Assembly (NCBI GenBank): GCA_021783095.1
Contig: JAJXUG010000010.1
Span: 1-64,000 of the forward strand
DNA length: 64,000 nt
From: Chloroflexota bacterium
GTDB taxonomy: Bacteria > Chloroflexota > Limnocylindria > Limnocylindrales > CSP1-4
Reading direction: 5' to 3'
This document shows positions 8,531-62,041 of the stretch, piece after piece. Numbering within the stretch: the stretch's first letter is position 1; the number at the start of each line of letters is the position of its first letter. The notes under the pieces were generated by a model. The model had not been told where the DNA came from and searched no databases. It saw only the letters and a list, made by a program, of their open reading frames with translations. Both the position numbers and the translations under genes were made by a program.

Positions 8531-8872
8531 ATGCGTCCCAGCCGTCGGCCCGCCGACCCCCATGCCGTGCTCGGCGTCGAGCCGAGCGCCACCCGCGCCG
8601 AGATCCGCCGCGCCTACCGCCGCCGCGCGCTCGAGATCCACCCCGACGTCGCCGAGACGGACACCACGGCCGAGATGGCCGCCCTCAACCAGGCGCGCGA
8701 CGAGTTGCTGGGGAGGGTGCCGAGGGCCGGCACGACGCGCGACGAGCCCGATCCGGCATCCCCGCCCGGTCCGCGGCACGGCCCGGCGGCCGGGCGCGGC
8801 TACGACCACGCGCCAGCCTGGGACGACTACTGGTCCGCCTGGAACGACCCGCCCCGCCGCCCGCCGCGCTGA
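8531..8872 (+). CDS. small J-domain protein
   Basis: A 113-residue protein. Residues 8-60 form a J domain: HAVLGVEPSATRAEIRRAYR and LEIHPDVAE, where the HPD tripeptide that stimulates DnaK ATPase is intact. The rest is a low-complexity Pro/Gly/Trp tail without a zinc finger, so it is not DnaJ itself but a specialised co-chaperone. The start is preceded at 6 nt by a CACCGT -10-like box. A second J-domain protein is encoded at 27312. Confidence 0.8.
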   Translation: MRPSRRPADPHAVLGVEPSATRAEIRRAYRRRALEIHPDVAETDTTAEMAALNQARDELLGRVPRAGTTRDEPDPASPPGPRHGPAAGRGYDHAPAWDDYWSAWNDPPRRPPR

Positions 8873-9144
8873 CCCGCCCCGCTGACCGGCGCCGCTGACC
8901 GGCTGCGCGCCCGCGCCGACGCGCCCCGCTGAGGTCGCTGGTGCTCGCCCGGTCCGATGGTCCCGTCGGGACGGCCCTTCCGGCCCGGGACCCGCATCGA
9001 ACCGCAACCGCGGCGCCGGGTCTGGCGGCAGGCGCCGCGAGCGCCCCCCTCCCGTACCGTCGGCACTGGGCCCGCCGGGTCCCGCAAGCCAGCCCACTCG
9101 CGCCCGCGCCCCCGGCGTCTGTCCCAATCGCACGGAGGGACCGC

Positions 9145-9636
9145 ATGCCCGCCCTGTACAAGAAGCCGTCGCCGCCGAGCGACGACAAGCGCTGGAAGAT
9201 CGTGGAGACGCGGATGCGCCGCATGGGCGACCGGCCCGCGGCGCTGATCGAGGCCCTCCACGCCGCCCAGGAGGCGTTCGGCTACCTCGACGCGGACGCA
9301 CTCCACTTCGTGGGCGACACGCTGGGCGTGCCCCACTCGCGCGTCTACGGCGTGGCGACCTTCTACTCGTTCTTCACGCTCAAGCCGCAGGGCGAGCACA
9401 CGTGCGTGGTCTGCACGGGCACCGCCTGCTACATCAACGGCGCCAAGGACATCCTCGCGGGGCTGGAGCGGGAGCTCGGCGTCAAGCCCAAGCAGACCAC
9501 CCCGGACAACAAGGTGTCGGTCCTGACCGCCCGGTGCCTCGGCGCGTGCAGCCTCGCCCCGGCGGTCATCGTGGACGGTGAGGTGGCCGGCAAGGTCAAG
9601 ACGGGCGAGCTGATCGCCCGACTGGAGGCGATGTGA
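9145..9636 (+). CDS. hoxE: NAD-linked [NiFe] hydrogenase subunit HoxE (NuoE-like)
   Basis: A 163-residue thioredoxin-fold [2Fe-2S] protein, first gene of hoxEFUYH. The cluster ligands are visible as CTGTACY and later RCLGACSLAPAV, the usual four-cysteine pattern of NuoE/HoxE. The ATG at 9145 follows CGGAGGGA. HoxE joins the diaphorase module that moves electrons between NAD(H) and the hydrogenase. The gene overlaps hoxF by GTGA. The full order E-F-U-Y-H defines a group 3d bidirectional hydrogenase rather than complex I. Confidence 0.93.
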   Translation: MPALYKKPSPPSDDKRWKIVETRMRRMGDRPAALIEALHAAQEAFGYLDADALHFVGDTLGVPHSRVYGVATFYSFFTLKPQGEHTCVVCTGTACYINGAKDILAGLERELGVKPKQTTPDNKVSVLTARCLGACSLAPAVIVDGEVAGKVKTGELIARLEAM

Positions 9637-11288
9637 GCGAGCCCAACGGCGCGGCGCGCCCGACCCGCCGCCGCCCGAACGAGGAGATCCACGAGGGACC
9701 CGTGCGCGCCAGCGCGTACGTGTGCGAGGCCGCGAGCTGCATGTCGCTCCAGGCGCACGACATCACGGTCCGCCTGGGCGAGGCGACCGCCGACGCGGGC
9801 ATGAGCGACGTCGTGGTCAAGCGCGTGGGCTGCATGGGCCTGTGCGCGGCCGGGCCGCTGGTCCAGATCCCGCAGACCGGCGAGCTGTTCAGCGCCGTCA
9901 CCCCCGACAACCTCGAGCCGATCGTGCAGGCCCTCGACAAGGTGACCGATGCGCCGGTCCGCCTGCCGCTGGGCCCCTTCTTCGAGCACCAGATCCGGGT
10001 CGTCACCGAGAACTTCGGCGAGATCGACCCCGAGAGCCTCGACGACTACGTCGCGCGCGGCGGCTACGAGGCGCTCCAGCGGGTCCTGGCCGAGATGACC
10101 TCGACGCAGGTGCGCGAGGAGATCACCAAGAGCGGGCTCCGCGGCCGCGGCGGGGCCGGCTACCCGACCGGCCTCAAGTGGACCACGGTCGCCAAGGCGG
10201 CCGGCACCCGGAAGTACGTCATCTGCAACGCCGACGAGGGCGACCCGGGCGCGTTCATGGACCGCTCAGTCCTCGAGAGCGACCCGTTCCGCGTCCTCGA
10301 GGGGATGGCGGTCGCCGCCTTCGCGGTCCACGCCAACGAGGGCTACATCTACTGCCGAGCGGAGTACCCGCTCGCGGTTGCGAGGCTCCGGGGGGCGATC
10401 CGACAGGCGCAGAAGGCCGGCTTCCTGGGCCAGGGGATCGCGGACACGTCGTTCAACTTCGACATCCAGATCCGCCTCGGTGCCGGCGCCTTCGTCTGCG
10501 GCGAGGAGACCGCGCTCATCGCGTCGGTCGAGGGCAAGCGCGGCACCCCGCGTCCCCGCCCGCCGTACCCGGCAGTCGAGGGCCTCAACGGCTGCCCGAC
10601 GCTGATCAACAACGTCGAGAGCTTCGCCAATGTGCCGGCCATCCTGCGCAAGGGCAGCGAGTGGTACGCAGGCCTGGGCTCGGGCAGGAGCAAGGGCACC
10701 AAGGTGTTCGCGCTCGCCGGCCGAATCGTGAACACGGGGCTCGTCGAGGTCCCGATGGGCATGTCGCTGCGCGAGATCGTGTACGACATCGGCGGCGGCA
10801 TCATCGACGGCCGGCCCTTCAAGGCCGTGCAGACCGGCGGCCCCTCCGGCGGCTGCATCCCGGCCCAGCACCTCGACATGCCGATGACCTATGAGGCGCT
10901 CATCGAGGTCGGCTCGTTCATGGGCTCGGGCGGGCTCATCGTCATGGACGACACGTCCTGCATGGTGGACGTGGCCAAGTACTTCATGGACTTCTGCCGC
11001 GACGAGTCGTGCGGCAAGTGCGTGCCGTGCCGCGTCGGCACCACCCAGATGTGGATGCTGCTCGACAAGATCACGCGCGGCAGGGCCGACCTGATCGACC
11101 TGGCCCAGCTGGAGCGCCTCGCGGGCGTCGTCCAGCGCATGAGCCTGTGCGGCCTCGGCCAGGGCGCCCCCAACCCGATCTTCTCCACCCTCCGCTACTT
11201 CCGGGATGAGTACATGGCCCACATCGTCGATCGGCGGTGCCCGGCCGGCGTCTGCGAGATCGAGCAGACGGAGGAGGTGCCGGCATGA
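9633..11288 (+). CDS. hoxF: NAD-linked hydrogenase diaphorase subunit HoxF (NuoF-like)
   Basis: A 551-residue flavoprotein that oxidises or reduces NAD(H). An N-terminal thioredoxin-like [2Fe-2S] domain (about residues 25-110) holds CEAASC and GCMGLCAAGP. The NuoF core follows: RGRGGAGYPTGLKW (FMN/NADH glycine-rich loop), CNADEGDPGAFMDR, FVCGEETALIASVEG and the C-terminal [4Fe-4S] motif SCGKCVPCR. Length and domain order fit HoxF. It starts at GTG in a GTGA overlap with hoxE and ends in ATGA with hoxU. Confidence 0.95.
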   Translation: MSEPNGAARPTRRRPNEEIHEGPVRASAYVCEAASCMSLQAHDITVRLGEATADAGMSDVVVKRVGCMGLCAAGPLVQIPQTGELFSAVTPDNLEPIVQALDKVTDAPVRLPLGPFFEHQIRVVTENFGEIDPESLDDYVARGGYEALQRVLAEMTSTQVREEITKSGLRGRGGAGYPTGLKWTTVAKAAGTRKYVICNADEGDPGAFMDRSVLESDPFRVLEGMAVAAFAVHANEGYIYCRAEYPLAVARLRGAIRQAQKAGFLGQGIADTSFNFDIQIRLGAGAFVCGEETALIASVEGKRGTPRPRPPYPAVEGLNGCPTLINNVESFANVPAILRKGSEWYAGLGSGRSKGTKVFALAGRIVNTGLVEVPMGMSLREIVYDIGGGIIDGRPFKAVQTGGPSGGCIPAQHLDMPMTYEALIEVGSFMGSGGLIVMDDTSCMVDVAKYFMDFCRDESCGKCVPCRVGTTQMWMLLDKITRGRADLIDLAQLERLAGVVQRMSLCGLGQGAPNPIFSTLRYFRDEYMAHIVDRRCPAGVCEIEQTEEVPA

Positions 11289-12001
11289 GCACGGTCTACA
11301 CGCTGACCATCGACGGCCGCGACGTGGCCGGCAACGAGGGCCAGACGATCATGGAGGTGGCCGAGGAGAACGGGATCGACATCCCGGGCCTGTGCCACCT
11401 GCCCGGCATCCACGACCGCGGCGCCTGCCGTCTGTGCGTCGTGGAGATCGAGGGCTCACCCAAGCTCGCGGCGGCCTGCGTCACGCAGATCTCCGAGGGC
11501 ATGCACGTCACCGCGCACAACGAGAAGCTCGAGGACTACCGGCGCGCGGCGACCGAGATGATCTTCTTGGAGCGCAACCACGTGTGCGCCGTGTGCGTTG
11601 CCAACAACCACTGCGAGCTCCAGGACCTCGCGGACGAGCTTCGTGTGACCCACTTCGACCTGCCGCGGATCAGCCCGGCGGTCGACATCGACGCCAGCCA
11701 CAAGCTGTTCACGATCGACCACAACCGCTGCATCCTGTGCCTGCGCTGCGTGCGCGTCTGCGACGAGATCGAGGGCGCCCACACGTGGGACGTGATGCAC
11801 CGCGGTCTCGAGACCCGCGTCCAGACGGACATGGGCATCCCGTGGGGCGAGTCGCCGACCTGCACCAGCTGCGGCAAGTGCGTCCAGGTGTGCCCCACCG
11901 GCGCCCTGTTCGAGAAGGGCCGGCCGGTCGCGGCCGGCTCCAAGACCAAGCGCCCGTTCCTGCCCTGGCTGCGGGTCCACCGGGAGGAGCGAGGGCTGTG
12001 A
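11285..12001 (+). CDS. hoxU: NAD-linked hydrogenase iron-sulfur subunit HoxU
   Basis: A 238-residue electron-wire subunit related to the N-terminus of NuoG. In order: a plant-type [2Fe-2S] domain (GLCHLPGIHDRGACRLC and a later Cys), a NuoG-type His/Cys cluster (HVCAVCVANNHC), and two [4Fe-4S] ferredoxin motifs, CILCLRCVRVCDE and CTSCGKCVQVCPTG. It links HoxF to the hydrogenase module HoxYH. Overlaps of 4 bp on both sides imply coupled translation and fixed stoichiometry. Confidence 0.95.
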   Translation: MSTVYTLTIDGRDVAGNEGQTIMEVAEENGIDIPGLCHLPGIHDRGACRLCVVEIEGSPKLAAACVTQISEGMHVTAHNEKLEDYRRAATEMIFLERNHVCAVCVANNHCELQDLADELRVTHFDLPRISPAVDIDASHKLFTIDHNRCILCLRCVRVCDEIEGAHTWDVMHRGLETRVQTDMGIPWGESPTCTSCGKCVQVCPTGALFEKGRPVAAGSKTKRPFLPWLRVHREERGL

Positions 12002-12528
12002 GCAAGCCGCGTGTCGCCACTGTCTGGCTCGACGGGTGCTCGGGCTGCCACATGAGCCTCGTCGACCTCGACGAGCGGCTGCTCGACATCTTCGGCCGCG
12101 CCGACCTCGTCTACGGGCCGCTCGTGGACGTCAAGGAGTTCCCCGAGAACGTCGACGTCTGCCTCGTCGAGGGGTCCGTCTCGTCCGAGGACGACCTCGA
12201 GCGGCTCATGAAGGTCCGGGAGCGGACCAAGGTGCTGATCGCCTTCGGCGACTGCGCCGTGACGTCCAACGTGCCCGGCATGCGCAACCCCATCGGGGTC
12301 CAGGCGCTCCTGGCCCGCGCGTACCTGGAGAATGCGGACGTCAACAAGGGCATCCCCGACCAGATCATCCCCAAGCTGCTGCCCACCTCGCAGCCGGTCA
12401 ACCGGTTCGTGGACGTGGACGTGTTCCTGCCGGGCTGCCCGCCGCATGCGGACCTGATCTACACCCTGCTCGACGACCTGCTGTCCGGCCGGACCCCCGA
12501 GGTCGCTGGCGCCCGGTTCGGGCGCTGA
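11998..12528 (+). CDS. hoxY: NAD-linked hydrogenase small subunit HoxY
   Basis: A 176-residue small subunit carrying the single proximal [4Fe-4S] cluster. Ligands are seen in WLDGCSGCHMSLVD, in AFGDCAVTSNVPG and in FLPGCPPHAD. It lacks the medial and distal clusters of membrane-bound enzymes, as expected for HoxY. The gene begins with GTG overlapping the hoxU stop (GTGA). It pairs with HoxH 14 bp downstream. Confidence 0.94.
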   Translation: MSKPRVATVWLDGCSGCHMSLVDLDERLLDIFGRADLVYGPLVDVKEFPENVDVCLVEGSVSSEDDLERLMKVRERTKVLIAFGDCAVTSNVPGMRNPIGVQALLARAYLENADVNKGIPDQIIPKLLPTSQPVNRFVDVDVFLPGCPPHADLIYTLLDDLLSGRTPEVAGARFGR

Positions 12529-12541
12529 GGAGGCCGACGCC

Positions 12542-13963
12542 ATGAGCCAGACCATCGTCATCGATCCGGTCACCCGGATCGAGGGCCACTCCAAGATCAC
12601 CATCCAGGTGGACGATCACGGCGAGGTCGTCGACGCGCACTTCCACGTCACCCAGTTCCGGGGGTTCGAGCGGATCACCCAGGGCCGGCCCGTCCACGAG
12701 ATGCCCGCCCTCATGGCCCGCATCTGCGGCATCTGCCCGGTCAGCCACCTGATCGCGAGCAGCAAGGCCGTCGACGACATCATGGCCGTCGAGCCCACGC
12801 CCACCGGCGCGGACCTGCGGCGCGTGATCAACCTGGGCCAGATCGTCCAGAGCAACGCGCTCTCGTTCTTCCACCTCTCGTCGCCGGACCTGCTGTTCGG
12901 CTTCGACGCCGACCCGGCGAAGCGCAACATCGTGGGCGTCGCGCAGGCCAACCCGGGCCTCGCCAAGGACGGCATCGCGCTGCGCAGGTGGGGCCAGCAG
13001 ATCATCGAGTGGATGGGCGGCAAGCGGATCCACCCCGAGGGCATCGTCCCCGGCGGCATGGCATCCCAGCTCACCGCCGAGATCCGGGACCGGATCCTCG
13101 CCGGCGTGCCCGAGGCGATCGCCGCCACCGAGCGCGCCATCGCCTGGTACAAGAGCGACATGGTCCGCTGGGAGGAGGAGGCGTCCACCTTCGGCAACTT
13201 CCGCTCGGCGTTCATGGGCCTCGTCGACCGCCACGGCAACGTGGACCACTACGGCGGCTGGATCCGCGTCGTGGACGCGGACGGCCGCCACCTGGCCGAC
13301 AAGGTGGACCCGAAGACGTTCAACGACTACATCGGCGAGGCCGTGGAGCCGTGGTCGTACCTCAAGTCCACGTACTGGAAGCCGATGGGCTACCCCGACG
13401 GGATCTACCGCGTGGGTCCGCTGGCGCGCCTCAACGTGGCCGAGAGGACCGGCACGCCGCGGGCCGACGAGGAGCTCGAGAAGTTCCGCTGGCGCGTCGG
13501 CCGGATCGCCGGCTCCTCCTTCCACTACCACTACGCCCGCCTGATCGACACCCTGCACGCGATCGAGAAGATCGAGGAGCTGCTGCGCGGCCCCGACATC
13601 CTCTCGCCGCACGTCCGCTCGGTGGCCGGCATCAACCGCAACGAGGGCATCGGCGTGTCCGAGGCCCCGCGCGGAACGCTGATGCACCACTACAAGGTGG
13701 ACGACAACGGCCTTGTCACCTGGGCGAACCTCGTGATCGCCACAGGCCACAACAACATGGCGATGAACCGCGCGGTCCTCCAGGTGGCGCGCAAGCACGT
13801 CAAGGCGGACCGGCTCGAGGAGTCGATGCTCAACCGGGTCGAGTCCGTCATCCGCTGCTACGACCCGTGCCTGTCGTGCTCCACGCACGCGCTCGGGCAC
13901 ATGGCGCTCCGCGTGCAGCTGCTCGCACCCGACGGGCACGTGCTCTCGGAGCTGGTCCGCTGA
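12542..13963 (+). CDS. hoxH: NAD-linked hydrogenase large subunit HoxH
   Basis: A 473-residue catalytic subunit carrying the NiFe(CN)2CO site. The N-terminal ligand pair is RICGICP (Cys62, Cys65) and the C-terminal pair is DPCLSC (Cys443, Cys446) followed by STH449, after which an endopeptidase should remove the last 24 residues. The proton-path Glu14 in VTRIEGH is present, so the site looks fully canonical, unlike the second enzyme at 58067. GAGG upstream of the ATG serves as ribosome site. Reaction: reversible H2 oxidation with NAD+. Confidence 0.96.
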   Translation: MSQTIVIDPVTRIEGHSKITIQVDDHGEVVDAHFHVTQFRGFERITQGRPVHEMPALMARICGICPVSHLIASSKAVDDIMAVEPTPTGADLRRVINLGQIVQSNALSFFHLSSPDLLFGFDADPAKRNIVGVAQANPGLAKDGIALRRWGQQIIEWMGGKRIHPEGIVPGGMASQLTAEIRDRILAGVPEAIAATERAIAWYKSDMVRWEEEASTFGNFRSAFMGLVDRHGNVDHYGGWIRVVDADGRHLADKVDPKTFNDYIGEAVEPWSYLKSTYWKPMGYPDGIYRVGPLARLNVAERTGTPRADEELEKFRWRVGRIAGSSFHYHYARLIDTLHAIEKIEELLRGPDILSPHVRSVAGINRNEGIGVSEAPRGTLMHHYKVDDNGLVTWANLVIATGHNNMAMNRAVLQVARKHVKADRLEESMLNRVESVIRCYDPCLSCSTHALGHMALRVQLLAPDGHVLSELVR

Positions 13964-56338: not shown

Positions 56339-56413
56339 GGGCCCGTAGCTCAACGGTAGAGCGGGGGACTCTTAATCCCTAGGTTCAGGGTTCGAATCCC
56401 TGCGGGCTCACCA
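56339..56413 (+). tRNA. tRNA-Lys (anticodon CUU)
   Basis: Acceptor GGGCCCG pairs with CGGGCTC (one G-U), D stem GCTC/GAGC, anticodon stem GGGGA/TCCCT with loop CTCTTAA giving anticodon CTT, T stem CAGGG/CCCTG with loop TTCGAAT, discriminator A and encoded CCA. Confidence 0.96.
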
Positions 56414-56778: not shown

Positions 56779-58065
56779 ATGCAGGACGACGGGCTGTACG
56801 CCGCGCTGCTGCGGCGGGGAATGACGCGCCGTTCGTTCCTCGGCTTCTCAGCCGCGATGGCCGCCGCCCTCGCCCTCCCCGCCAGCTTCGCCCCGCAGAT
56901 CGCCACGGCCGTCGAGGGCGCGAAGCGCCTGCCGGTCATCTGGGTCCGCGGCCAGTCCTGCGGCGGCGACACGGAGGCGCTCCTGCGCTCCGGCGACCCG
57001 ACGGCCGTCTCGCTGTTCCTGGACGTGCTCGCGGTCGAGTACCACGATTCGCTGCTCGCGGTCGCCGGGGCCGATGCGGAGCTGGCGCGGACGAGCGCGA
57101 TGCAGCTCTACCCCAACGGCTACCTCGCCGTCGTGGAGGGCTCGATCCCCGACGGCGCGTCGGGCGCCTACTGCCTCATCGGCGGGCGGCCCGCGGCAGA
57201 CGTCGTCCGTGAGGTCAGCGCCGGCGCGCTCGCGACCATCGCGGTGGGCTCCTGCGCCTGCGACGGCGGCGTCGCGGCTGCCGGCTGGAACACCACGCAC
57301 GCGGGCGGGGTGAAGGGCCTGGTGGGCGGCGGCAAGTACATGGCCCTGCCGGGCTGCCCGGTCAACCCGGTCAACCTGGCATCGGTGATCGTCCACTGGA
57401 TCACGTTCAGTGCCCTGCCTGCGGCCGACCTGGCCGGGCGTCCGCTGTCGGCGTACGGGAACCTGATCCACAACCAGTGCGAGCGTCGGCCCCACTTCGA
57501 GTTCGGCGAGTTCGCCACCGAGTGGGGCGACCAGGGTGCGCAAGAGGGCTGGTGCCTGTACAAGCTCGGCTGCAAGGGCCCCGAGACGATGGGCAACTGC
57601 CCGACCGTCAAGTACGGCGAGAAGATCAGCTGGAACGTCCGCGCGGGTCACGGCTGCATCGGCTGCATGACGCCGAGCTTCTGGAACGAGATGGGCTCCG
57701 CGCACAAGCGCCTGCCGGCACCTGTGTTCTTCCTTCCCAACCTCACGGCCGACATGATCGGCGGGGGGCTGCTGGCCGGGATCGGCGGGGTCGCCGGCCT
57801 GCACGCGGTGGGCATGGGGATGCGGTTCAAGCGACGCCGGGTCATCGCCGCCCGCGACAAGGCCATGGCGGCGGTGGGGTCGGCGGTCGCCTCGCCCGCT
57901 GCCCTCGAGACCGAGGGGCCCCAAGCGGAAGCCGGTCCCGATGGCGGGCGGGCGCCCGAGGCGGGAGGAGCGAGCCCGGCCGGCACCCTCGACGCCGCCG
58001 AGCGCGGGGCCGCCGCCGAGGCGGCTCTCGACTCCGGGGCCCCCGCTGGTCCGGAGGAGCGCTGA
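56779..58065 (+). CDS. membrane-bound [NiFe] hydrogenase small subunit with Asp at the proximal cluster
   Basis: 428 residues. Tat signal MTRRSFLGFSAAMAAALALP. Iron-sulfur ligands: proximal Cys61, Asp64 (SCGGDTEALL; usually C-x2-C), Cys159 and Cys193, with extra Cys161; distal His231, Cys234, Cys259, Cys265; medial Cys274, Cys293, Cys296. A C-terminal membrane helix (about 327-348) anchors it outside the membrane, then an unusual 80-residue Ala/Pro/Gly tail. An Asp at this position is known from the structurally characterised actinobacterial-type hydrogenase of Ralstonia eutropha. It leads an operon of five overlapping or adjacent genes. Confidence 0.93.
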   Translation: MQDDGLYAALLRRGMTRRSFLGFSAAMAAALALPASFAPQIATAVEGAKRLPVIWVRGQSCGGDTEALLRSGDPTAVSLFLDVLAVEYHDSLLAVAGADAELARTSAMQLYPNGYLAVVEGSIPDGASGAYCLIGGRPAADVVREVSAGALATIAVGSCACDGGVAAAGWNTTHAGGVKGLVGGGKYMALPGCPVNPVNLASVIVHWITFSALPAADLAGRPLSAYGNLIHNQCERRPHFEFGEFATEWGDQGAQEGWCLYKLGCKGPETMGNCPTVKYGEKISWNVRAGHGCIGCMTPSFWNEMGSAHKRLPAPVFFLPNLTADMIGGGLLAGIGGVAGLHAVGMGMRFKRRRVIAARDKAMAAVGSAVASPAALETEGPQAEAGPDGGRAPEAGGASPAGTLDAAERGAAAEAALDSGAPAGPEER

Positions 58066-58066
58066 C

Positions 58067-59839
58067 GTGGCCAGGATCGTCATCGACCCCGTCACTCGCG
58101 CCGGCGGCAACCTGCGCGTCGAGTTCACCCGGGCCGGCTCTGTGATCGACGACGCCTGGGTCTCGGGCATGAGCTTCCGGGGCATCGAGCTCGCGCTCGC
58201 CGGCCGCGACCCGCGCGACGCCTGGACGCTCGCGGAGCGCATCTGCGGCACCTGTTCGGGCGTCCACGCGCTCGCCTCGGTCCGGGCCGTGGAGAACGCG
58301 CTCGGGATCCGGATCCCGGTCAACGCCCGGATCATCCGCAACCTGCTGGCGGGGACGCTGCTCGTCCGCGACCACGTCATGAGCCTCTACCTGGGTCAAC
58401 TGGCCGACTTCGTCGACCTGAAGTCGGCCACCGCGGCGGACCCCGCCGCCGCGGCCGCCCTCGCCGCCAAGCAGGCCGACCGCCCGAACGCGACCGCCGC
58501 CGACTTCGCGACGGTGCGCGACCGCATCGCGGCCGAGATCGGCAGCAGCCACCCGAGCGTGATCGGCAACGGCTGGTGGGGCCATCCCGCCTACCGCCTC
58601 GCGCCGGAGCAGAACCTGCTGCTCGCGGCCCACATGCTCGAGGCGCTCGACTGGCAGCACGAGTTCATGCGGCTCCATGCGCTCCTCGGCGGCAAGGATC
58701 CGCATCCCCAGACGTACCTCGTGGGCGGCATGGCGGTGACCCCGCCGTGGGGCGGCCCAACCGGCACGGCAGGTCGGGACCACCCCCAGGTCCCGGATCG
58801 CAACGCGCCCGAGCCGCTGAGCTCGGAGGGCTTCGCGTTCATGGAGGGCCTGGTCAAGACCGGGCGCGACTTCGTGACGCAGGTCTTCGCGCCGGACGTC
58901 GCGCTCCTCGCCGGCGCCTATTCGGACTGGGTGGAGCTGGGTGTCGGCCCCGGCGGCTACCTCTCCGCGGGCGAGTACCCGGCCAACGACGCCTCGCCGC
59001 CCGAGCTGCTCTTCCCGACCGGGCGCCTGGACGACGGCAACCTCGAGGCGTCGCAGCCGGTCGCCGACGGCGAGTTCACCGAGGCCGTGGGCAGCAGCTG
59101 GTACCGCTACCAGGCCGGGGCCGACACGCTCCTCGGCGGCGGGAGCGGCGAGACCGCGCCGGCGTGGCCGGGCCTGCCCCTGCCGCTCACGACCCTTGAC
59201 GGGGCCGCCGCCTACTCGTGGGTCAAGTCGGCCCGTTACCGCGGCGTGCCGATGGAGGTCGGGCCCCTGGCCCGCGTGCTCGTGGGCGTCGCGAACGGCC
59301 GGGAGGATATCGTCCAGACGCTCGCCACGGCGCTGGATCCGCTCAACCTCCAGGTCGACAAGCTGCCGGGCGTGATCGGCCGGCTGGTGGCCCGCTCGGT
59401 CGAGGCCGACGTGGTGATCGGACACGCCGCGATCTGGCTCTCGGACCTCAAGGCGAACCTCGCCACGGGCGACCTCGCGGTGGCCGACGTCACGTCCTGG
59501 GACCCGGAGTCGTGGCCCGCTGAGGCGCACGGCTTCTCGCTCGGCGAGGGACCGCGCGGCGCCGTCGGCCACTGGGTGACGATCCGCGACAAGGTGGTCG
59601 CCGACTATCAGGTGATCGACGCCTCCACTTGGAACCTCGCCCCGCGCGACGTCACCGGCAGCCGCGGCCCGCTCGAGGCGGCGCTCCGCAATACCCCCGT
59701 GGCGGATGCCAAGCGGCCGCTCGAGGCCCTGCGGGTCGTCCACTCCTTCGCTCCCTGCGCGGGCTGCGCCGCGCACACCTTCGGCCCCCGCCGGGACACC
59801 CCCGCGGAGCGCACCGCACGCCCGGAGGCCACCCGATGA
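58067..59839 (+). CDS. membrane-bound [NiFe] hydrogenase large subunit, divergent active-site surroundings
   Basis: 590 residues. Nickel ligands are present: Cys60 and Cys63 in RICGTCSGVH, Cys564 and Cys567 near the end. However, the C-terminal motif reads SFAPCAGCAAH, with Ala562 where nearly all relatives have Asp, and the N-terminal RIEGH motif is RAGGN, so the proton-relay Glu is absent. HyaD-type cleavage after His570 would remove 20 residues. GTG start 1 bp after the small-subunit stop; ATGA overlap with cytochrome b. Oxidation of H2 in the periplasm-equivalent space is likely, but the chemistry near the metal must differ. Confidence 0.92.
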   Translation: MARIVIDPVTRAGGNLRVEFTRAGSVIDDAWVSGMSFRGIELALAGRDPRDAWTLAERICGTCSGVHALASVRAVENALGIRIPVNARIIRNLLAGTLLVRDHVMSLYLGQLADFVDLKSATAADPAAAAALAAKQADRPNATAADFATVRDRIAAEIGSSHPSVIGNGWWGHPAYRLAPEQNLLLAAHMLEALDWQHEFMRLHALLGGKDPHPQTYLVGGMAVTPPWGGPTGTAGRDHPQVPDRNAPEPLSSEGFAFMEGLVKTGRDFVTQVFAPDVALLAGAYSDWVELGVGPGGYLSAGEYPANDASPPELLFPTGRLDDGNLEASQPVADGEFTEAVGSSWYRYQAGADTLLGGGSGETAPAWPGLPLPLTTLDGAAAYSWVKSARYRGVPMEVGPLARVLVGVANGREDIVQTLATALDPLNLQVDKLPGVIGRLVARSVEADVVIGHAAIWLSDLKANLATGDLAVADVTSWDPESWPAEAHGFSLGEGPRGAVGHWVTIRDKVVADYQVIDASTWNLAPRDVTGSRGPLEAALRNTPVADAKRPLEALRVVHSFAPCAGCAAHTFGPRRDTPAERTARPEATR

Positions 59840-60648
59840 CCGCGCTCGACGACGTCCGGATCACCCCCGCGGCAGCGCCCGCCCCGCCCACGGCCTCCAC
59901 GGAGGCGACGGCCGCGCACGGGCACCCGGTCATCGACCGGCCGCACGACCGGGTTGGCGTCTACATCTGGCAGGTGCCGGTCCGCATCACGCACTGGGTC
60001 ACCGCATTCTGCATCGTGACCCTCAGCCTGACCGGCGGGTACATCGCGGACCCGTTCCTCATCCCGCCCGGCGGCCACGTGATGACCACGATCCGGATGA
60101 TCCACATCATCGCGGCGCTCACGTTCCTGGTGTCGGGCGCCATCCGGACGGTGTACCTGCTGTTCGGCAACCGGTTCGCGCGCTGGACCGCGTTCATCCC
60201 CACCAACCGCAAGCAGTTCACCGAGCTGTTCCGCCAGGCTGGCTTCTACGGCTTCGTCAAGAGCGAGATCCCCAAGGTGCTGGGGCACAACCAGCTGGCG
60301 GCCGCCGCGTACCTCGCGCTGTTCGCGCTGCTGCTGGTCGAGACCGTCACGGGCTTCGCGCTCGACGGCCTGATGGGCGCCGAGCCCGGCGCGACGGGGT
60401 TCGCCTGGCTGCGCGAGCTCTTCGGCCCGCAGATGCTCCGGCTGGTCCACCACCTCTCGATGTGGCTGATCCTCGCCATCGCCCTGTTCCACGTCTACAG
60501 CTGCGTGCTCGTCGACCACATCGAGAACGTGGGCGTCGTGACCAGCATGTTCACCGGCTTCAAGTTCCCGACCCGTGAAGAGGTCGTCGAATCCCGCGAC
60601 GGCGGGGTCGAGGTCCTGGAGCAGGCCGTCAAGAGGGCCGAGGGATGA
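59836..60648 (+). CDS. hydrogenase-associated b-type cytochrome (HyaC-like)
   Basis: 270 residues with four membrane helices after a 40-residue Ala/Pro tail. Candidate heme ligands: VRITHWVTAFCIV, MIHIIAALTFLVSG, and LVHHLSMWLILAIALFHVYS. The order of these segments matches Ni/Fe-hydrogenase cytochrome b subunits that pass electrons from the small subunit to quinone. Overlaps of 4 bp on both sides fix its place in the operon. Confidence 0.9.
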   Translation: MTALDDVRITPAAAPAPPTASTEATAAHGHPVIDRPHDRVGVYIWQVPVRITHWVTAFCIVTLSLTGGYIADPFLIPPGGHVMTTIRMIHIIAALTFLVSGAIRTVYLLFGNRFARWTAFIPTNRKQFTELFRQAGFYGFVKSEIPKVLGHNQLAAAAYLALFALLLVETVTGFALDGLMGAEPGATGFAWLRELFGPQMLRLVHHLSMWLILAIALFHVYSCVLVDHIENVGVVTSMFTGFKFPTREEVVESRDGGVEVLEQAVKRAEG

Positions 60649-61199
60649 TGGCCCCGCTCGACGGCCCGGCGGTCGTTCTCGGCGTGGGCAACATCCTGCT
60701 TCGCGACGACGGCGTCGGCGTGCGCGTCGTGCGCGGGCTCCGGTCACTTGTGGAGCACGACCCGTCCGCGCTCCCGGAGGGGACCCGGCTGGTGGACGGC
60801 GGGACGCTCGGGCTGGACCTCCTGCGGACCGTCGACGGCGCGCGCTGCCTGCTGCTGCTCGACGCGGTCGACCTCGGCCAGCCGGCCGGCACCGTGAGCG
60901 TGCTGCGCGGCGACGCGGTCCTCGCCGCCGGCGGCGCCTGGGGCCGGAGCGTCCCCGGCGGGGTGGGCGAGCTCCTCGCGGCGGCGCGGCTGATGGGCTG
61001 GCTGCCCGACCCAGTCGCCATGGTCGGCATCCAGGTCCACGACACCAGCTTCGGCGTCGGGCTGTCCGAGCACGTGGCCGCAGCCCTGCCGCCCGCGATC
61101 GCCACCGCCCGCCACGAGCTGCACGAACTCCACAGGCTGGCGCACGCAGCCACGTCCCGGACTGCCGGGGCGGGCGAGGCGGAAGGGGCGATGGCATGA
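60645..61199 (+). CDS. hydrogenase maturation endopeptidase HyaD-like
   Basis: 184 residues. VVLGVGNILLRDDGVGVRVV opens the domain with the nickel-sensing acidic residue, and LVDGGTLGLDLLRTVDG and VGIQVHDTSFGVGLSEH supply the further conserved positions. It should cut the large-subunit tail after His570. A separate enzyme, HoxW, serves the Hox hydrogenase, as expected because these proteases are specific. Confidence 0.9.
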   Translation: MMAPLDGPAVVLGVGNILLRDDGVGVRVVRGLRSLVEHDPSALPEGTRLVDGGTLGLDLLRTVDGARCLLLLDAVDLGQPAGTVSVLRGDAVLAAGGAWGRSVPGGVGELLAAARLMGWLPDPVAMVGIQVHDTSFGVGLSEHVAAALPPAIATARHELHELHRLAHAATSRTAGAGEAEGAMA

Positions 61200-62041
61200 A
61201 GCGACGCATGGACAGGACGCTGCGCCTGCTGATCCTGCTCAACCTGGCCGTCATCGCGATGCTCGCCGCGATCATGATCGCGAACTGGCTCGAGCTGATC
61301 CCTGCCCGCGGCACCTTCCCGGCCAGCACCTCCGGCACGGCCGGGTCCCCACTCGCCCCCGGCGCCTCCGCGTCGCAGCAGGTGTTCCAGATGGGCCTCG
61401 CCCACATCCCCACCTCCAACGACTGCCTGCTGTGCCACACCTCGGGCGGGTCCGCGGGCATCAAGCCCATCCCGGCGATGGGCCATCCGCTGGCGGGCTG
61501 GACGGCCTGCCTGACCTGCCACACCAACGAGAAGCTGGGGCGCGAGGCGCCGGGCCACGAGGGCATCGCCGAGAGCGAGTGCACCAACTGCCACAAGGAG
61601 CCCACTCAGGGCCCGGCCATCACGCAGGCCCACGCCAACCTCAACAAGCCCTGCCTGAGCTGCCACGGCTCGGTGGCCCACCTGCCGACATCGATGGTTG
61701 GCCGCAGCCAGGACGAATGCTGGCTGTGCCACAAGCCGAACCCGTCGCCGCCGCCCATCAAGCCGCACCCGGATCCGCAGAACCTCGCGTGTCGCGACTG
61801 CCACAAGTCGTCGTCCGTGGGCAGCCTGCCGATCGACCACGCGCTCCGCGGCGATGACACGTGCGTGCTGTGCCACGACATCGGCACCGGCTCGAAGGCG
61901 TCTCCGGGGGCGAGCCCGTCGTCGGGCGCGAGTGCCTCGGCGTCGCCGGTCACCTCGCCGCTCGCGCCGACCCTCGCGCCGCCGTCCGCGCGGCCAGCCC
62001 TGTCGCCGATCGCGAGCCCGCTCGCCTCGACCTCGCCCTGA
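61196..62041 (+). CDS. membrane-anchored heptaheme c-type cytochrome
   Basis: 281 residues. An N-terminal membrane helix (LRLLILLNLAVIAMLAAIMI) anchors the protein; seven CxxCH motifs follow (CLLCH, CLTCH, CTNCH, CLSCH, CWLCH, CRDCH, CVLCH) in about 170 residues, then a Ser/Pro/Ala tail. It overlaps the endopeptidase gene by ATGA, so it belongs to the hydrogenase operon. A NapC/NrfH-like role, taking electrons from H2 to or from outer acceptors, is plausible; cytochrome b is already present for quinone. Confidence 0.92.
   Translation: MKRRMDRTLRLLILLNLAVIAMLAAIMIANWLELIPARGTFPASTSGTAGSPLAPGASASQQVFQMGLAHIPTSNDCLLCHTSGGSAGIKPIPAMGHPLAGWTACLTCHTNEKLGREAPGHEGIAESECTNCHKEPTQGPAITQAHANLNKPCLSCHGSVAHLPTSMVGRSQDECWLCHKPNPSPPPIKPHPDPQNLACRDCHKSSSVGSLPIDHALRGDDTCVLCHDIGTGSKASPGASPSSGASASASPVTSPLAPTLAPPSARPALSPIASPLASTSP

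Follow-up and report, generated by a model that had tools for sequence, protein, structure and literature searches.

Within the 64,000-nucleotide stretch of Chloroflexota DNA that we analyzed (the window; G000:C28), the locus under study is a five-gene operon that encodes, in order, the small and large subunits of a [NiFe] hydrogenase, a cytochrome b, a HyaD-type endopeptidase, and a heptaheme cytochrome (Table 1). The ATG of the cytochrome b gene overlaps the stop codon of the large-subunit gene, the start of hyaD overlaps the end of the cytochrome b gene, and the start of the heptaheme cytochrome gene falls within the hyaD stop codon. A tRNA-Lys gene lies upstream of the operon, and HypD was found elsewhere in the window's genome. 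The window also carries genes for a soluble Hox-type hydrogenase, whose HoxH reads RIEGH, CGIC, and DPCLSC and is canonical, as a preliminary description of this DNA had stated.

Table 1. Features of the hydrogenase operon and other features of the window (HyaB, large subunit of E. coli Hyd-1)
Feature	Position	Strand	Evidence or remark
tRNA-Lys (CTT)	56339-56413		upstream of hydrogenase operon
Small subunit gene	56779-58065	+	translation; TIGR00391, 365 bits; ligand table; 43 PDB matches
Large subunit gene	58067-59839	+	GTG start at 58067; PF00374, 1.2e-155
Gly13 codon	58103-58105	+	HyaB E28 lost
Asp518 codon	59618-59620	+	HyaB V530D, gained clade-specific Asp
Ala562 codon	59750-59752	+	GCT; replaces Asp of DPC (HyaB D574); relatives compared
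b-type cytochrome gene (Ni_hydr_CYTB)	59836-60648	+	TIGR02125, 124.9 bits; PF01292
HyaD/HybD-type maturation endopeptidase gene	60645-61199	+	TIGR00072; PF01750
Membrane-anchored heptaheme c-type cytochrome gene	61196-62041	+	seven CXXCH
Soluble Hox-type hydrogenase genes	9633-13963		
HoxH gene	12542-13963		canonical motifs

The large subunit reads DPVTRAGGNLRV and VVHSFAPCAGCAAH in translation, with AERICGTCSGVH as its L1 motif and SFAPCAGC as its L2 motif, and the PF00374 profile covers 508 of 508 positions. All four nickel cysteines are present (C60, C63, C564, and C567), and a C-terminal extension continues past H570. We used E. coli HyaB as the numbering reference for residue comparisons across relatives. 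On this basis, two second-shell residues of group 1 enzymes are absent from the window's protein, with G13 at the position of the relay Glu (E28) and A562 at that of D574, the Asp of the DPC motif. D518 stands at the position of V530, T62 at that of V78, and G110 at that of L126. The latter two correspond to V74 and L122 of Desulfovibrio fructosovorans, which have been described as a gas-tunnel bottleneck (PMC11134402); this correspondence was taken from the PDB alignment offset (query 4 equals chain 16 of 1frf), with the stretch assumed to be ungapped. The pendant Arg (R497, HyaB R509) and its partner D102 (D118) are retained, as are H103 and E446. The preliminary description had reported the four cysteines, the missing Glu, and the Ala in place of a near-universal Asp, and all three hold in the translation. 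An AlphaFold2 model of the large subunit, built from a 5-row alignment, had a mean pLDDT of 62.8 with values below 50 in the active-site loops and was set aside.

The small subunit carries a Tat signal (RRSFLGF) and a C-terminal membrane helix. It reads QSCGGDTEAL, with C159 and C161, and the ligands of its proximal cluster are C61, D64, C159, and C193; the ligands of the medial and distal clusters are canonical. The proximal Asp and the added Cys161 had both been put forward as unusual, and both are present in the window. As distinguishing features they did not stand: across the relatives described below, position 64 is D, N, or E (Asn in the canonical paralogues), and either Asn or Asp has been documented there in group 1f (PMC5364354), so the proximal Asp is ordinary for that group. 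C161 is variable and occurs in only four species. We rejected C161 as a cluster ligand for this reason and because it appears, from the alignment, to lie off the position of HyaA C120.

We searched for related large subunits among the relatives, 107 genomes of the window's bacterial family, and 400 genomes of its phylum. These searches yielded a set of large subunits sharing 47 to 72% identity with that of the window. In a maximum-likelihood tree that included canonical sequences from the window's family and phylum, 16 of them formed one clade (support, 100/100) nested within the canonical hydrogenases of the family. Two further members, G072 (partial) and G123, were recognized by motif and operon. 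Across the family and the 400 phylum genomes, the divergent clade was restricted to the window's family. Scanning the 400 phylum genomes with a DNA pattern that covers the V530D segment gave matches in 8, all from this family and each a known clade member. The pattern HSFAPCxxC matched 11 of the 400, with hydrogenases only in four genomes from the window's genus; the matches in other families were rejected as clade members, as all lay outside hydrogenases. Named MAG relatives from other groups were canonical where readable. In the window's genus, a genome that carries the divergent copy usually has a canonical group 1 paralogue as well; in the window's genome this paralogue lies on contig C108 and reads RIEGH and DPC. 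In-frame TGA flags in G007, G008, G117, G119, G120, and G128 were considered as selenocysteine codons and rejected, as those that were translated proved to be ordinary C-terminal stops. These data suggest, at about even confidence, that the divergent copy arose once in the window's family as a lineage-specific paralogue of a group-1f-type membrane-bound enzyme. Among open-licence papers, we found no description of the clade.

Four traits define the clade: E28 is lost, an Asp is gained at V530, the gas gate is rebuilt, and a heptaheme cytochrome serves as partner. E28 is replaced by Gly or Asn in 19 of 19 readable members (Glu in 47 of 47 canonical enzymes), and V530 by Asp in 19 of 19 (Val in 48 of 48). 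P531 is Ala or Gly. The gate residues V78 and L126 are each replaced in 16 of 18 members and have turned polar or charged. The four nickel cysteines are unchanged in every readable member, and H119 is kept in 17 of 18, with most of the His-rich motif dropped. The canonical enzymes share 107 invariant columns. The clade preserves 60 of them without exception, and 12 have been lost by 75% or more of its members. Nine of the 12 fall in L0, L1, the His-rich segment, and the 530 segment (HyaB 27, 28, 30, 78, 80, 122, 126, 530, and 531), and this concentration in active-site and gate segments indicates that the change was targeted.

Other changes are confined to particular genera. None of the nine readable members from the window's genus has D574, which the other genera retain; the position holds Ala in six genomes (G000, G002, G004, G006, G008, and G009), Val in G007, Asn in G011, and Ser in G001. 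Since independent genomes of the same genus share a change here, Ala562 is not a sequencing error. The preliminary description had allowed for one at 59755-59757, and those positions also miss the codon, which is the GCT listed in Table 1. It had further offered the Asp-to-Ala change, combined with a Tat-type, membrane-anchored, cytochrome-linked layout, as the sign of a distinct subgroup; the change marks a single genus, which is one part of a wider clade. D118 and R509 are kept in the window's genus. Elsewhere, D118 is lost in G070, G117, G119, G120, and G123, and R509 is Gly in G117 and G120, which are sisters (support, 100/100). In these two (L060 and L059, respectively), the change of the "strictly conserved" pendant Arg to Gly occurs together with D118 to Ser or Gly. 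We also observed an Arg beside D118 in every readable member of the window's genus (R101 in the window's large subunit; HyaB H117), a possible charge compensation in the same lineages that lost D574.

Judged by sequence, the window's enzyme belongs to the [NiFe] hydrogenase family but lacks the residues that are canonical in L0 and L2, and it falls among the typical Tat-exported, membrane-bound group 1 enzymes. Its large subunit had its best PDB match (4.3e-139) in the membrane hydrogenase of Allochromatium vinosum/Thiocapsa (3myr), whose aligned L0 and L2 motifs are canonical, unlike those of the window's enzyme. E. coli Hyd-1 (HyaAB) and Hyd-2 share its fold, nickel ligands, and subunit plan but have canonical second-shell residues throughout and Cys at the proximal position. 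The closest resemblance is to group 1f (the Roseiflexus, Geobacter, and Frankia type), with its Tat-exported small subunit, C-terminal anchor, b-type cytochrome, HyaD, and proximal cluster of three Cys plus Asn or Asp (PMC5364354). The canonical sequences that surround the clade in the tree are of this kind, and the divergent enzyme most likely derives from group-1f-like enzymes. It departs from group 1f in the missing relay Glu, V530D, the replaced V74/L122 gate, an operon-encoded heptaheme cytochrome c, and, for the window's genus, the loss of D574. Group 1h (HofKG of Cupriavidus necator, 5aa5) also has a documented proximal Asp and a replaced relay Glu, and the earlier remark that this group varies at the Glu was borne out by the alignment (Val in HofG, Ile in S. 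cattleya). However, group 1h lacks the Tat signal and membrane helix (PMC5364354), is remote in sequence, keeps D574 and D118, and has Pro at 530 in HofG where the clade has Asp. We rejected membership of group 1h because the window's enzyme has both the Tat signal and the helix and reads AERICGTCSGVH at L1, where group 1h has TSRICGICGDNH (PMC5364354). Membership of groups 1l and 2a was rejected on L2 (SFAPCAGC versus S[FY]DSCLVC in the references). Group 1m clusters contain an FeS assembly protein, a CooC-type ATPase, a TPR protein, and a BirA homologue (PMC9561532), and group 1m was rejected because the operon has none of these marker genes.

The gene order (small subunit, large subunit, cytochrome b, HyaD where present, and heptaheme cytochrome) is conserved wherever contigs allow, and 14 of 14 operon cytochromes that were read contain seven CXXCH motifs. 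The window's heptaheme cytochrome matches a cytochrome c7-like PDB chain (8k9e) weakly. Cytochromes of the main type (E values up to 1.3e-62) were found in 19 of the 107 family genomes, in or beside the hydrogenase operon where the contig permits, except in G065. Maturation differs within the clade. The window's genus keeps the HyaD protease and a cleavable tail. In G117, G119, G120, G123, and G128 (loci L060, L065, L059, L147, and L067, respectively), the large subunit stops precisely at CxxCxxH (Q for H in G117) and the operon has no hyaD; the gene is present in 11 of 13 members with a tail (Fisher P = 0.0025, uncorrected for relatedness). The loss of tail and hyaD in these five members of one genus was possibly one event, and they have apparently lost the proteolytic maturation checkpoint.

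Pairwise dN/dS (Nei-Gojobori) was 0.10 to 0.33 for divergent large subunits, 0.06 to 0.25 for divergent small subunits, and 0.07 to 0.32 for canonical paralogues; these values are rough because of high GC content and high dS. Large-subunit frames were open throughout the clade. The divergent genes look functional and are under purifying selection. The G006 small subunit (L051, 2034-3109) and the G033 cytochrome b (L050, 1956-2665) show apparent frameshifts, possibly assembly errors. In G065:C96 (L146, about 8650-9502), a 47-residue small-subunit start stands directly before the heptaheme cytochrome with no other part of the hydrogenase operon present, through either natural deletion or misassembly.

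In the T. roseopersicina enzyme, about 50% of the activity survives the E14Q mutation of the relay Glu, H104 is the one important residue of the His-rich motif, and D103L and R487I are inactive, with R487I blocking maturation (PMC3325256). The D. fructosovorans enzyme is inactive without the relay Glu (cited in PMC3325256). In Hyd-1, the relay Glu is unnecessary for the first deprotonation (PMC10430524). The pendant Arg is kept in place by D118 and D574, and one cyanide ligand is bound by Thr532 (PMC5962704), which places V530D two residues from a second-shell contact.

The reading we prefer, held at a confidence near the midpoint, is that a group-1f-derived enzyme kept by selection still builds the NiFe site, has had its proton, gas, and electron paths rerouted, and most likely oxidizes H2. 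The enzyme would still assemble an NiFe(CN)2CO site facing the periplasm; protons would leave via D518, via the R497-D102-H103-E446 chain, or via both, rather than via E28, and this alternative chain is complete in the window's protein. Electrons would pass from the Fe-S chain to cytochrome b and on to the heptaheme cytochrome, and H2 oxidation may be slower than, or tuned to conditions other than, that of the canonical paralogue in the same genome. We consider H2 oxidation the likeliest function, with about half of our belief behind it, because the window's genus keeps the maturation system, nickel ligands, and alternative chain intact and because group 1f enzymes oxidize H2 (PMC6776052). Counting against it are the loss of D574 in the window's genus and of D118 or R509 in other members. 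In T. roseopersicina, loss of either of the latter two abolished activity (PMC3325256). Nor is a polar or charged gate an obvious fit for the entry of H2.

Because a related genus has lost R509, a role other than H2 turnover stays in play, as a tentative alternative: the NiFe(CN)2CO-type center may serve another small substrate, redox sensing, or an electron-transfer hub with the heptaheme cytochrome. Such a role would fit the lost relay Glu and the two altered gate residues, the absence of D574 from one genus and of D118 and R509 from another, the invariant nickel cysteines under purifying selection, and the canonical group 1 paralogue that could take over H2 oxidation in most carriers of the window's genus. 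However, it comes with no candidate substrate, the window's genus has an intact Arg-Asp-His-Glu chain and an intact system of HyaD and C-terminal tail, and group 1h enzymes function although they have no relay Glu. It is conceivable, though we rather doubt it, that the clade carries out a nonstandard reaction (another substrate, sensing, or electron storage) through a new Asp near the active site and the heptaheme cytochrome; as part of that doubtful proposal, the clade would have abandoned the standard proton relay and also, stepwise in different genera, the canopy Asp and Arg and the hydrophobic gate. It appears unlikely that relaxed selection is letting a redundant paralogue slowly decay. 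The clade has diverged faster than its sister paralogues (mean identity, 54% versus 77%), signs of relaxed selection have been reported for what is probably the window's family, CSP1-4 of the Limnocylindria (PMC13212565), and the G065 gap and the two apparent frameshifts point the same way, the latter with the caveat already given. But the selection data disfavor decay, with open large-subunit frames and dN/dS well below 1; moreover, the new Asp is fixed, the whole operon is kept over several genera, and the losses cluster around the active site rather than being scattered. That the enzyme is an ordinary member of a characterized subgroup (1f, or 1h-like by its proximal Asp) with unremarkable chemistry is very improbable. 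The documented proximal Asn or Asp of group 1f and the missing relay Glu of group 1h would allow it, but V530D occurred in 0 of 48 reference or canonical sequences checked, none of those checked had the altered gate pair or the loss of D574, the D530 DNA motif stayed within the window's family, and group 1h is remote. The proposal of a distinct subgroup is supported, on grounds that differ from those given in the preliminary description: the defining traits of the clade as a whole rather than the proximal Asp or the Ala. Of these traits, V530D, the rebuilt gate, and the heptaheme partner do not appear in that description.

What a [NiFe] hydrogenase requires of its second shell has been studied mostly through point mutations that abolish activity. 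The divergent clade offers a graded series produced by evolution, from canonical enzymes to those without E28 but with the new Asp, then to those without D574, with another branch lacking D118 and Arg509. The nickel cysteines are kept throughout, making this a natural test of which "essential" residues are essential. If active, these enzymes would use a substitute path for protons and an altered gas gate, which could inform catalyst design; if inactive on H2, they would represent a new use of the NiFe cofactor.

Beyond the operons, related cytochromes (35 to 48% identity) were found at other places in the genomes. The one canonical sister operon that was read, in G001 (L056), had no match to the heptaheme cytochrome. 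A second multiheme cytochrome type (40 to 48% identity) occurs at loci without hydrogenase genes (L149, L150, L151, L154, and L155), and G119 and G123 carry an extra related multiheme cytochrome immediately upstream of the small subunit.
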